Shown: positions 31,952 through 34,709 of the stretch, piece by piece | Numbering within the stretch: the first letter of the stretch is position 1 | How the letters are laid out: every line of letters begins with the position of its first letter | NCBI RefSeq assembly: GCF_019139815.1 | Contig: NZ_CP077079.1 | Coordinates: 744,001-808,000 of the forward strand | DNA: 64,000 bases | Direction of reading: 5' to 3' | From: Pseudomonas asgharzadehiana | GTDB lineage: Bacteria > Pseudomonadota > Gammaproteobacteria > Pseudomonadales > Pseudomonadaceae | The notes under the pieces: model-generated | What the model saw: the letters and a program-made list of their open reading frames with translations, nothing else | Told to the model about the DNA's origin: nothing | Database searches by the model: none | Position numbers and translations under genes: made by a program

Positions 31952-32048
31952 ATGTGAACTGCATCTGGTTCCTGGGTTTCCTCTTTGCGTCCTGCCCCAG
32001 CATAATCACGCCAAACGTCCATTCCTGTGATTGCCTTGGGAGAGCGCC

Positions 32049-32864
32049 TTGCCGAGCGTATCCACCGTGAACCCCGACGCTTCGGCGTTACTGGTGCAAC
32101 TGTCCGACAGCCATCTGTTTGCCGAGGCCGACGTTACGCTGCTGGGCATGAATACCCGTGAGAGCCTGCGACGGGTGATCGAGCTGGCGCGCGCGCAACA
32201 GCCGCAGGTCGACCTGGTGCTGGCCACCGGGGACCTGTCCCAGGACGGCACGCTTGAGTCGTACCAGCAGTTTCGCCAGATGACCGCGCCTATCGGTGCC
32301 CCGGCGCGCTGGATTCCGGGTAATCATGATGAGCCTCAAGTCATGGTCCGGGCCGCCGAGCACAGTGATTTTCTGGAGCCGGTAGTCGATATCGGCCACT
32401 GGCGCGTCATCCTGCTGGACTCCGCCGTACCCGGTTCCGTGCCGGGTTACCTGCAAGACCAACAACTGCAACTACTGGCTCAGGCCCTGAGCGAAGCGCC
32501 AAACCGTCACCACCTGGTGTGTTTCCACCATCATCCGGTGCCCATCGGCTGTGCCTGGATGGAGCCCATCGGCCTGCGCAACCCCGAGGCACTGTTTGCC
32601 GTGCTGGACCGCTTCCCCCAGGTCAAGGCAGTACTCTGGGGCCATGTGCATCAGGAAATCGACCGTGAGCGCAACGGCGTGCGCCTGCTGGCGTCGCCAT
32701 CCACCTGCATCCAGTTCGCACCGGGCAGCGAGGACTTCAAGGTCAGCGAGCAAGCGCCAGGGTATCGTTGGCTGCGTTTGCATGCCGACGGACGGTTGGA
32801 GACTGGCGTAGAGCGGCTGGTCGGCTTCGCGTTTACGGTGGATTACGGTAGCAACGGTTATTAA
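32049..32864 (+). CDS. cpdA: 3',5'-cyclic-AMP phosphodiesterase CpdA
   Basis: A 271-residue class III cyclic nucleotide phosphodiesterase that hydrolyses cAMP to AMP and so tunes Vfr/CRP signalling. The metallophosphoesterase motifs appear in order: LSDSHLF (Asp20, His22), ATGDLSQDG, PGNHDEP, CFHHHPVP and WGHVHQEID. The start is TTG 32049 behind GGGAGA; an upstream TTG at 32031 is in frame but lacks such a site. It is the last conserved gene before the accessory insert. Confidence 0.93.
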   Translation: MPSVSTVNPDASALLVQLSDSHLFAEADVTLLGMNTRESLRRVIELARAQQPQVDLVLATGDLSQDGTLESYQQFRQMTAPIGAPARWIPGNHDEPQVMVRAAEHSDFLEPVVDIGHWRVILLDSAVPGSVPGYLQDQQLQLLAQALSEAPNRHHLVCFHHHPVPIGCAWMEPIGLRNPEALFAVLDRFPQVKAVLWGHVHQEIDRERNGVRLLASPSTCIQFAPGSEDFKVSEQAPGYRWLRLHADGRLETGVERLVGFAFTVDYGSNGY

Positions 32865-32880
32865 ACGTCCTCCGCGTTGG

Positions 32881-32906
32881 GCTCGAGCACTGAATGTTTA
32901 GTGCGG
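32881..32906 (+). repeat. Left copy of an imperfect direct repeat flanking the ImmA insert
   Basis: GCTCGAGCAC..ATGTTTAGTGCGG resembles 33996-34019 (GCTCGGGCGC..ATGTTTATTCCGC), about 19 matches over 24 positions with a two-base gap. The two copies bracket the AT-richer two-gene insert. It could be a target-site duplication or recombination scar, or chance. Confidence 0.4.
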
Positions 32907-32949
32907 TTCCGGTCATTTACAACTCGACTCAGATAACCCGCTGGGCGTT

Positions 32950-32978
32950 TTGATTTTCTTCGTAGACGCGCCTATATA
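32950..32978 (+). promoter_or_regulatory. Candidate promoter of the ImmA insert
   Basis: TTGATT (32950-32955) and TATATA (32973-32978) are spaced by 17 bases, a good sigma-70 arrangement, about 95 bases before the peptidase start. The leader between them also carries CTGTAC twice (near 32989 and 33010) and a CCTTCGGCGGAAGG dyad, which may be operator-like. Confidence 0.5.
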
Positions 32979-33073
32979 TTCAGCAGATCTGTACCCATCG
33001 ATAGTTTTCTGTACAATTTTGCCTCCTTCGGCGGAAGGATATCTATCCACCAGTACTGACAAGGAGATCGCTC

Positions 33074-33550
33074 ATGCCTGTTCGCACCGCTCAAGATGTC
33101 CTAAATAGGTACTGGGACCGTCAACTTCCTATTGATCCCTATCGTATTGCACGTGCAGCGGGCGCTTCAGTGGAACCGGATTACGGCATGAGCGCTCATG
33201 ATCTGAGTGGCTGCTTTGACGTTGTGAATAACATTCCAACCATCCGTTTCAATCCTGATGATGCGGTTGTTCGGCAGCGCTTTACTATTGCTCATGAGTT
33301 AGGGCATATGTTTTTAAGGCACGGTCATTCCTTCAGGGATAATGCGAGAAACTATAGTTCGGGAACACATCTTTACCGAGAGCGGGATGCAAATAGTTTT
33401 GCGGCGGAGTTGTTGATGCCTAAAGAAGTTGTCGAGTGGCTGGTCTTCAAGGAAAAAAAACACGATGTTGAGGAAATGGCGGCAATACTAAATGTGTCAG
33501 GCGCGGCAATGCATTATCGCTTGATGAACCTCGGACTAATTCGTTACTGA
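33074..33550 (+). CDS. ImmA/IrrE family zinc metallopeptidase
   Basis: A 158-residue single-domain peptidase. The zinc motif HELGH is at 74-78 in FTIAHELGHMFLRH; the third-ligand region is ERDANSFAAELLMP (103-116), and the C-terminal helix-turn-helix-like VSGAAMHYRLMNLGL is usual for ImmA. Family members cleave repressors of mobile elements or act in toxin-antitoxin and defence pairs. Here no XRE-type repressor is adjacent; the partner is a small membrane protein 15 bases downstream. GC is about 42-48 percent against over 60 in the neighbours, a sign of acquisition. AAGGAG at 33061-33066 supports ATG 33074. Confidence 0.88.
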   Translation: MPVRTAQDVLNRYWDRQLPIDPYRIARAAGASVEPDYGMSAHDLSGCFDVVNNIPTIRFNPDDAVVRQRFTIAHELGHMFLRHGHSFRDNARNYSSGTHLYRERDANSFAAELLMPKEVVEWLVFKEKKHDVEEMAAILNVSGAAMHYRLMNLGLIRY

Positions 33551-33565
33551 AATGAGAGTAGAGTT

Positions 33566-33970
33566 TTGAAGGATCAGAATCTCCAAAAGGATGTGGACTA
33601 TTCGGAAGGCAGTATCCCTAAGCTTCCGGACACGGAGCGCTTCAATAGAAGCCAGCTCGACGAGGCTGATACTCGTAGGCTCCAACGAGGGATTATCTTC
33701 GTTACAATTTATGTTGCGGCTGTTTATGTGTTTGGAGCGTTTGTCGTCTACACATTCAAGCTTATTCATGGTGCCAAGCTGGAAACTACACCCATGCTCT
33801 TGTGGTTATTGGCAATTATGCCGATAGCCTTGATTCTATTGATGATGAAGCTCGCTGCGGAGCCTGCCAAAGTTGAGGATAAACCTGCTGGCCTGGGTAG
33901 CGATATTGTTGCGATTTTTCAGGAGCTCGCCGCTGCGCTGAAGGATTTTCTCAAATCCAAGACTGGATAG
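33566..33970 (+). CDS. Small two-helix membrane protein partnered with ImmA peptidase
   Basis: A 134-residue protein I do not recognise. It has a charged soluble N-terminus (1-40), two predicted membrane helices (about 42-66 and 77-97), a short loop with HGAKLETT, and a C-terminal tail with an amphipathic helix (about 112-131: IVAIFQELAAALKDFLKS). The only in-frame start near the 5' end is TTG 33566, preceded by GAGAGTAGAG. It is probably co-transcribed with the peptidase and shares its low GC. A substrate, inhibitor or membrane effector of the peptidase are all possible; none is shown. Confidence 0.7.
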   Translation: MKDQNLQKDVDYSEGSIPKLPDTERFNRSQLDEADTRRLQRGIIFVTIYVAAVYVFGAFVVYTFKLIHGAKLETTPMLLWLLAIMPIALILLMMKLAAEPAKVEDKPAGLGSDIVAIFQELAAALKDFLKSKTG

Positions 33971-33995
33971 CCTTGAAATAAATAATTAGAGAGAC

Positions 33996-34019
33996 GCTCG
34001 GGCGCGATGTTTATTCCGC
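33996..34019 (+). repeat. Right copy of the imperfect direct repeat flanking the ImmA insert
   Basis: See the left copy at 32881-32906; here GCTCGGGCGC..ATGTTTATTCCGC follows the two accessory genes directly and precedes the yqiA leader. Confidence 0.4.
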
Positions 34020-34100: not shown

Positions 34101-34709
34101 ATGTCCGCTTCGATCCTGTACATCCACGGCTTCAACAGTGCGCCGGCGTCCAACAAGGCCAGCCAGTTGATCCGCGTGATGGACGCCCTTGGCCTGGCCG
34201 ATCAATTGCGCGTGCCAGCCTTGCATCACCATCCCCGTCAGGCGATTCCCCAGTTGGAAGAGGCCATTGCGCAACTGGGTCGACCACTGCTGGTCGGCAG
34301 CTCACTCGGCGGCTACTATGCAACCCATCTTGCTGAACGCCATGGCCTCAAGGCGCTGCTGGTCAACCCGGCGGTGAGTCCCCATCGCATGTTCGACGGT
34401 TACCTGGGCACCCAGAAGAACCTCTACACCGATGAAACCTGGGAGTTGACCCACGACCACGTCACGGCGCTGGCCGAGCTGGAAGTACCGGCGCCCCAGG
34501 ATGCGGGACGTTATCAGGTGTGGTTGCAAACCGGCGATGAAACCTTGGATTATCGCCTCGCCCAGCAGTATTACCGAGCCTGTGCCTTGCGCATCCAGCC
34601 CGGTGGCGACCATGGCTACCAAGGATTCGCCCAGCAATTGCCGGCGCTTTTGAGTTTTGCCGGCGTGGGTGCGGATCAGTATCAATCCTTCGATTTTTCG
34701 GCACTGTAA
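34101..34709 (+). CDS. yqiA: YqiA/YcfP-family alpha/beta-hydrolase (esterase)
   Basis: A 202-residue alpha/beta-hydrolase. It begins ILYIHGFNSAP, with the oxyanion HGF motif, and has the nucleophile elbow VGSSLGGYYAT; the acid and base are likely in LQTGDETLDY and PGGDHGYQGF. E. coli YqiA shows esterase activity on acyl-CoA and short esters. In other pseudomonads it follows cpdA directly and precedes parE, so the ImmA genes interrupt an otherwise conserved order. Confidence 0.88.
   Translation: MSASILYIHGFNSAPASNKASQLIRVMDALGLADQLRVPALHHHPRQAIPQLEEAIAQLGRPLLVGSSLGGYYATHLAERHGLKALLVNPAVSPHRMFDGYLGTQKNLYTDETWELTHDHVTALAELEVPAPQDAGRYQVWLQTGDETLDYRLAQQYYRACALRIQPGGDHGYQGFAQQLPALLSFAGVGADQYQSFDFSAL

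Follow-up and report, generated by a model that had tools for sequence, protein, structure and literature searches.

Characterised relatives in the M78 (ImmA) family of zinc peptidases cleave XRE-type repressors, namely ImmR (PMC2701414) and DdrO and CapH (PMC10904395), as the passages of these papers devoted to the enzymes relate, and the entry on COG2856 (ImmA) in the survey of Makarova et al. (2009, PMC2701414) gives XRE, RelE and PIN partners and names no membrane partner. In this study, we describe an insert between cpdA and yqiA in a 64,000-nucleotide stretch of Pseudomonas asgharzadehiana DNA (NCBI RefSeq assembly GCF_019139815.1, contig NZ_CP077079.1, positions 744,001 to 808,000; hereafter 'the window'), where the gene of a stand-alone ImmA-type protease is followed by that of a two-helix membrane protein (MP). 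With these two genes, the insert represents a widespread cargo module that prophages and other mobile DNA carry. We read this module as a lysogeny-borne superinfection-exclusion or abortive-infection system in which the protease would control a membrane effector, a reading to which we give a probability of about one half.

Each of the closest described systems shares some traits with the window pair. ImmA/ImmR of ICEBs1, IrrE/PprI–DdrO and other M78–XRE modules are like it in protease fold, catalytic motif and small, often mobile, format, whereas the window partner is a two-helix membrane protein and no XRE or helix-turn-helix (HTH) domain is fused or adjacent. CapP–CapH of CBASS has a protease related to the window ImmA (PADLOC capP model, 3e-22; PDB 7t5t) and a link to defence, but the CapP chain measures 291 aa against 158 aa, and at the window neither CapH nor a CBASS operon was seen, the flanks being cpdA and yqiA. 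ImmA peptidase domains also lie inside tested or catalogued defence systems, such as PD-Lambda-2 and those behind the RmrA models of PADLOC, which we take to be RosmerTA. PD-Lambda-2, as introduced by Vassallo et al. (2022, PMC9519451), includes an XRE–peptidase fusion with a HigB-like partner, whereas the window ImmA stands alone beside a membrane protein, and PADLOC 2.0 did not place both proteins of the pair in one system. The gpA–gpQ interval of P2-type prophages, where relatives of the pair occur, holds old/tin and other cargo made of different proteins; the main text of the paper on this slot (PMC9122126) has 0 mentions of ImmA, its supplementary tables lying outside the search.

In design, the pair resembles RexAB of lambda, RexABpp of P. 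putida and CarolAnn gp44/gp43, which combine a soluble with a membrane partner and are prophage-borne; RexAB is presented as a soluble sensor with a membrane effector in the relevant sections of PMC12894663 and PMC6426606. Some copies of our pair also lie directly downstream of cI, as RexAB does, although the window copy does not. However, RexA is DNA-binding or DUF4747-like and not a protease, and RexB-type proteins have four helices in the section of PMC7542560 that deals with them, whereas MP has two; the window pair contains neither a DUF4747 protein nor a four-helix membrane partner. By this analogy, the pair would most likely work like RexAB, yet be unrelated to it. Open-licence PMC full text yielded no description of an XRE-less ImmA with a two-helix partner (subscription papers, preprints and supplements may list one), and the main text on DefensePredictor (PMC13092281) leaves ImmA, IrrE and M78 unmentioned. 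The features of the locus are as follows.

32031..32864, + strand: cpdA (Pfam Metallophos), flank outside the module, start codon uncertain
32865..33073, + strand: leader of the insert, AT-richer, 5′ of the protease gene (GC profile, promoter scan, AAGGAG before the ATG)
33074..33550, + strand: ImmA-type M78 zinc protease, XRE-less, 158 aa (Pfam Peptidase_M78 E 2e-17; PADLOC capP 3e-22; AlphaFold)
33293..33307, + strand: HELGH codons (residues 74–78), zinc-binding and catalytic motif (alignment)
33380..33382, + strand: Glu103 codon, invariant in the 26-row alignment
33566..33970, + strand: two-helix membrane protein MP, 134 aa, TTG start (open reading frame (ORF), hydropathy, profile searches)
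33596..33610, + strand: DYSEG codons (MP residues 11–15), local form of D[LFIYM][SA]xG, a motif that is recurrent, not universal
33692..33748, + strand: predicted membrane helix 1 (MP residues 43–61; hydropathy; helix 24–67 in a low-confidence model)
33791..33847, + strand: predicted membrane helix 2 (MP residues 76–94; hydropathy; helix 72–98 in the same model)
33893..33964, + strand: predicted C-terminal helix of MP (residues 110–133; low-confidence model), amphipathic over 113–130 (moment test)
34101..34709, + strand: yqiA (Pfam UPF0227), flank outside the module

The window protease and MP constitute a real two-gene system. A search of 398 Pseudomonas genomes with ImmA (E <= 1e-15) matched 13, of which 12, window included, carry a two-helix protein directly 3′ of ImmA; the ImmA frame of the thirteenth (G303) is interrupted by a stop, and MP is matched there only weakly. 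Searched in turn with an MP profile, the same set gave 11 genomes, and by coordinates each of the 11 MPs lies against ImmA or a short way 3′ of it. Few members of the genus have the pair (approximately 3% of the 398 genomes), and its distribution is patchy. When the flanks of the window copy were compared with those of 10 further Pseudomonas loci (G303 and G285 being left out), several sites emerged; three copies (L123, L128 and L130) share one of them, and L124 and L126 lie beside prophage tail-type genes (Phage_tail_L by L126, JAB and NlpC/P60 by both). The nearest copy among the 398 genomes, G338, is 61% identical in ImmA and 32% in MP and occupies a different site, next to an alcohol-dehydrogenase-like gene (so named from reading the sequence). 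The first-pass annotation of this DNA had raised a possible defence or regulatory pair whose membrane protein would be linked to ImmA and whose presence would vary within the genus; both expectations are borne out here, and the linkage extends to the viral loci described below.

Beyond Pseudomonas, the 26-row ImmA alignment was used to query one-genome-per-species contigs, and the best 80 of 450 loci, chosen by ImmA similarity, were retained. A fixed partner rule (two helices, 100–270 aa, adjacent to ImmA) held for 29 of them, and inspection or Hidden Markov Models (HMMs) added six more (L069, L101, L078, L089, L110 and L049, the last with an open segment that matches the MP profile as its partner), so that 35/80 loci have a two-helix partner, against a background of 12 two-helix proteins of 90–280 aa among 582 flanking genes. 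An XRE HMM match lay within 1.5 kb of just two of the 35, L110 and, with the match on the other strand, L052, compared with 32/45 of the others (Fisher P 1e-9; 6e-5 without 18 HMM-training loci), for loci that are not phylogenetically independent and with XRE and CI HMMs that are home-made. MP takes the place that XRE usually has. On an ImmA tree of 88 rows, in which 42/85 inner branches are weak and L049 was scored as 'other', partner types cluster, the two-helix type requiring 10 changes against a shuffled mean of 29.7. Among decayed or partnerless loci, the MP profiles matched L100, L049 and, weakly, G303, and gave no match at L047, L073, L095, L217 and L222.

The usual absence of an XRE gene bears on a regulatory switch, a doubtful alternative in which MP would hold ImmA at the membrane until a signal freed it to cleave a distant XRE/CI repressor, of its own or a rival prophage, and so control induction and not defence. 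Such a switch would agree with the cleavage of XRE-type repressors by characterised relatives (PMC2701414 and PMC10904395, in the parts concerned), with the 'antirepressor' annotation of three Pseudoalteromonas phage copies, with a further M78 gene elsewhere in this genome, which is HTH-fused and of the usual kind, and with the loci L145, L147, L148 and L153, where the pair lies directly 3′ of a CI-like repressor. That repressor was recognized by PHROGs in L145, which has a phage sigma factor downstream and is among the closest viral-contig relatives, and in L153, and by a home-made CI HMM, built partly from L147, in L147 and L148. However, no XRE gene lies within 1.5 kb in 33 of the 35 bacterial two-helix loci and none was found in the window, and the pair recurs at unrelated sites with no fixed repressor. 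A cI neighbourhood as a general rule was rejected, as the CI HMM, whose sensitivity is limited, matches 5/160 loci, of which three had supplied sequences for its training and one, L224, has no two-helix partner.

Querying IMG/VR with the 26-row alignment gave the same arrangement in viral contigs: a two-helix protein lies directly 3′ of ImmA in 70 of 80 loci (the best 80 of 200), against 7 two-helix proteins of 90–280 aa among 490 flanking genes. Partners are borderline in four further loci (L146, L214, L215 and L223), the contig edge is reached in three (L158, L185 and L199) and the partner is missing in L217, L222 and L224. The XRE HMM matched L224 and, of the 70 paired loci, L150 alone, two genes upstream. 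The 74 viral pairs, which form 46 ImmA clusters at 85% identity, have genes that abut or overlap in 49 cases, with a 4-base overlap in 33. The two proteins are co-inherited: identity between ImmAs rises with identity between their MPs over 68 representative pairs (Spearman 0.34, where the maximum of 1000 permutations was 0.14). Mean identities over the same pairs are 0.395 for ImmA and 0.162 for MP, so that MP is diverging far faster, as an arms-race effector might. The catalytic motif is intact, HExxH being present in 115/115 paired proteases and a downstream E..AN.F-type motif in 113/115.

Tight linkage of this kind is also what toxin–antitoxin addiction would produce, with MP as a membrane toxin, ImmA as the antitoxin that degrades it and the mobile DNA kept by addiction. 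No MP occurs without ImmA in the 398 Pseudomonas genomes (11/11), the decayed G303 locus combines an ImmA gene interrupted by a stop with only a weak remaining MP match, the genes overlap, and plasmids and phages carry them. We nevertheless hold addiction to be improbable: the protease is encoded first and is the well-conserved member of the pair, patchy presence suits any mobile cargo, and the literature consulted contained no ImmA-family protease antitoxin, COG2856 being predicted as the toxin side in the relevant part of PMC2701414.

Partner families are linked to differing degrees. In hhalign comparisons, the window MP set joins a mainly Burkholderiales set with a probability of 97.7% and, more weakly, Desulfovibrio (90%), long-loop (90%) and Pseudomonas class Ib (70%) sets; the P2 set joins through the Burkholderiales set (95.5%), its direct link to the window set being 5%. 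MPs vary in length from approximately 113 to 256 aa, and some have long loops.

Many copies sit in phages, prophages or plasmids. Viral loci L146 and L149 have terminase genes nearby; Burkholderia phage Carl1 (Peduoviridae) has the pair, with other genes, between cosL and the portal gene; and in Salmonella phage MET_P1_103_31 and one P2 isolate (both Peduoviridae) it follows gpA. In the record of that isolate (OU784750; L134:5542-6165), MP probably starts 144 bases upstream of the annotated position, 5686: the extended frame gains the N-terminal tail of its relatives and has the length given to a RefSeq E. coli copy. Gordonia phage Polly encodes gp29, a metalloprotease, and gp30, a 'membrane protein', approximately 2 kb from its integrase. 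ImmA matched in seven plasmids, and in both of those inspected a third gene, of 304–306 aa, follows the genes of ImmA and a two-helix protein (Vibrio plasmid L137:5204-6124 and Enterobacter plasmid L138:5182-6096). From 163 neighbouring proteins, 119 were picked by hand, large ones and same-site near-repeats being left out, and among the best 25 of 127 PHROG matches to them are integrases (3 and 2 members), terminases, tail and portal proteins.

Matches in E. coli came from 49 of 5426 complete genomes, 3 of the 49 covering at least 80% of the query. All eight copies inspected follow a replication endonuclease gene, gpA by position, and in seven the portal gene gpQ also follows, which places relatives of the window pair in the gpA–gpQ interval that Rousset et al. 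(2022, PMC9122126), in the main text, present as an anti-phage hotspot of P2-type prophages. The eighth, H35, is a remnant with lysis genes next; it has two small genes between gpA and the pair, while gpA is frameshifted in H57. As a separate observation, a gene of approximately 313 aa on the reverse strand follows the pair in six of the eight (L142:6234-7175, L143, L144 and L238–L240).

Carriage by phages raises the alternative of an envelope-acting pair that serves the phage itself, with MP as a holin-like protein that times lysis or blocks entry and is matured by ImmA. Two helices, an inter-helix loop with few basic residues (2, against 8 in the N-tail and 6 in the C-tail) and the many copies in viral contigs are compatible with it. 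No holin family matched at a useful E-value, one relative giving a weak Phage_holin_3_6 match (E 0.076), and the window pair lies between cpdA and yqiA and not in a lysis cassette. The contexts inspected are cI, terminase, gpA and tail genes or plain chromosome, lysis genes adjoin only the P2 remnant H35, and the spread of lengths with long loops also argues against a holin-like role, which we consider unlikely.

On the superinfection-exclusion or abortive-infection reading, the soluble ImmA protease would be the sensor or switch and MP its partner, substrate and effector in the inner membrane. Infection or damage would activate the protease, which would cut MP in its N- or C-terminal cytoplasmic tail; the cut MP, or MP freed of a brake, would then damage or close the membrane, and phage growth would stop. 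That this amounts to an undescribed anti-phage class is tentative, and we put it at somewhat less than even odds: an M78 protease would directly gate a membrane effector, the two-helix MP would replace XRE and sensing would be wired to the membrane without transcription, the class having spread with prophages of Proteobacteria and having a second partner class in Actinobacteria, Bacteroidota and Clostridia.

Several results weigh against an anti-phage role or against parts of this mechanism. The literature consulted held no phage-resistance, toxicity or cleavage data for any member. The window copy and some others have ordinary chromosomal surroundings, and defence-island enrichment was rejected, since the PADLOC matches among the 119 neighbours (best 25 of 99) are single-member ones (methyltransferase, type I specificity, mads). 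AlphaFold modelled MP with low confidence (pLDDT 61). That the N-terminal motif D[LFIYM][SA]xG serves throughout as a docking or cleavage site was rejected on a negative held-out test, in which the strict form occurred in 0/7 novel clusters and a loose form in 2 (0.9 expected). A single family for all two-helix partners was likewise rejected, as homology of class II partners (from Actinobacteria, Clostridia, Bacteroidota (Hymenobacter), Gordonia phage and others) with the window MP is unsupported (hhalign 37%). In the accompanying profile test, one 'decoy', L110, turned out to be a genuine class II partner, and with two of the profiles reversed sequences scored as well as E 4e-4 and 6e-3, so weak profile matches were not used.

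A large ImmA family with a conserved membrane partner points to a new output for a protease family that cleaves repressors. The pair is also a candidate defence module missed by current catalogues, in which no model covers the window MP and ImmA is drawn to the capP or RmrA models, and with relatives in the P2 hotspot the idea lends itself to routine phage assays in E. coli K-12.

At 158 aa, the window ImmA is a minimal enzyme. M78 is its one Pfam match above threshold, joined by a sub-threshold M43, and PADLOC matches it to the capP and RmrA models. HELGH (residues 74–78) and Glu103, presumably the third zinc ligand as in IrrE, are invariant across the 26-row alignment, so that the domain, HExxH and downstream Glu of an M78 peptidase are all present. 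The AlphaFold model is confident (pLDDT 89.9); Foldseek returned IrrE, CapP (PDB 7t5t) and PprI as its best solved structures, and a sequence profile search of the PDB returned the same three together with an HTH cro/C1-type chain (9vzy). Single-stranded DNA sensing should not be assumed for so small an enzyme, because PprI requires its GAF-like domain for activation by single-stranded DNA, as stated in the pertinent section of PMC10904395. No XRE or CI protein was found among window ORFs of at least 60 aa (E <= 0.01, the two home-made HMMs). Elsewhere in the genome, near 1475587, a second M78 gene of 381 aa (L226:1237-2382) has an N-terminus that is HTH-like by eye, the usual layout of an XRE–ImmA fusion.

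The MP gene begins 15 bases past the ImmA stop. Its two membrane helices were called by a simple hydropathy rule, and the tail is amphipathic over residues 113–130 (moment 0.515 against a shuffle mean of 0.22, with 42/5000 shuffles as high), less clearly so over 111–132 (211/5000). These findings sustain the description in the first-pass annotation, which had set out a low-GC insert between two normally neighbouring genes, a stand-alone ImmA-type peptidase with HELGH at 74–78, no XRE partner and, 15 bases on, a 134-residue protein with two membrane helices and an amphipathic tail.

For the window MP, nothing in Pfam, NCBIfam, PADLOC or PHROG passed the threshold, and matches of its relatives are weak and scattered. 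Among 15 MPs, Pfam gave DUF3681 in 8 (best E 8e-4) and Oxidored_q3 in 4 (best 7e-5), and PADLOC a single PDC-M11A match (E 0.02); among 48 diverse partners, 2 matched DUF2207_C (best 6e-5), 2 PglZ (best 3e-4) and 1 a 4TM effector model (best 3e-4). A single-sequence search that returned 4 proteins, MP itself included, out of 5.8 billion had suggested an orphan, which the ImmA-anchored searches overturned. An MP-query scan of the one-genome-per-species contigs gave no matches, nor did tblastn with the window MP against plasmids and phages or with the class Ib MP against plasmids, the tblastn failures reflecting the fast divergence of MP. The N-terminal motif D[LFIYM][SA]xG is, by sequence comparison, a recurrent but not universal feature, seen in 13/22 clusters (0.67 expected), the same sequences from which the pattern was derived, and in 6/28 viral clusters (0.77 expected).

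At the window itself, the interval from the end of cpdA (32864) to the start of yqiA (34101) spans 1236 bases, with a GC content of 0.46–0.47 across the coding part of the insert versus 0.58–0.65 in the flanks. Of 38 relatives searched, 25, own genome included, had yqiA at the cut-off, and cpdA lies together with it in all 24 other Pseudomonas genomes (median gap 131.5 bases; at most 481 in 22, and 959 and 1404 in the remaining two). The protease–MP pair at this site is an insertion, because ImmA or MP occurs in the interval in 0 of these 24 relatives; the gaps in the two nearest (cpdA 90% and yqiA 95–97% identical) are only 121 and 184 bases. The first-pass annotation had also credited the insert with its own promoter, a claim that fared less well: no + strand promoter came out of a stricter consensus scan, and looser matching 5′ of the ImmA gene gave two weak candidates of 8/12 each, TTGATT-17-TATATA at 32950 (−10 at 32973) and TGTACC-16-TACAAT at 32990 (−10 at 33012). 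A plausible Shine–Dalgarno sequence, AAGGAG, lies just 5′ of the ImmA ATG. A similar insert in the two long-gap relatives (L022 and L024) was considered and rejected, ORF and GC inspection revealing no AT-rich two-gene insert; their gaps have host-like GC and repeated ORF fragments and are perhaps expanded intergenic repeats.

Five further loci (L087, L088, L090, L118 and L102) pair an XRE-less ImmA with other downstream partners of approximately 354–478 aa. A two-helix protein stands upstream of ImmA in L088, L090 and L102, a shorter one slightly overlaps ImmA in L118 and none was seen in L087, and together these loci may represent a partner-swapping series.

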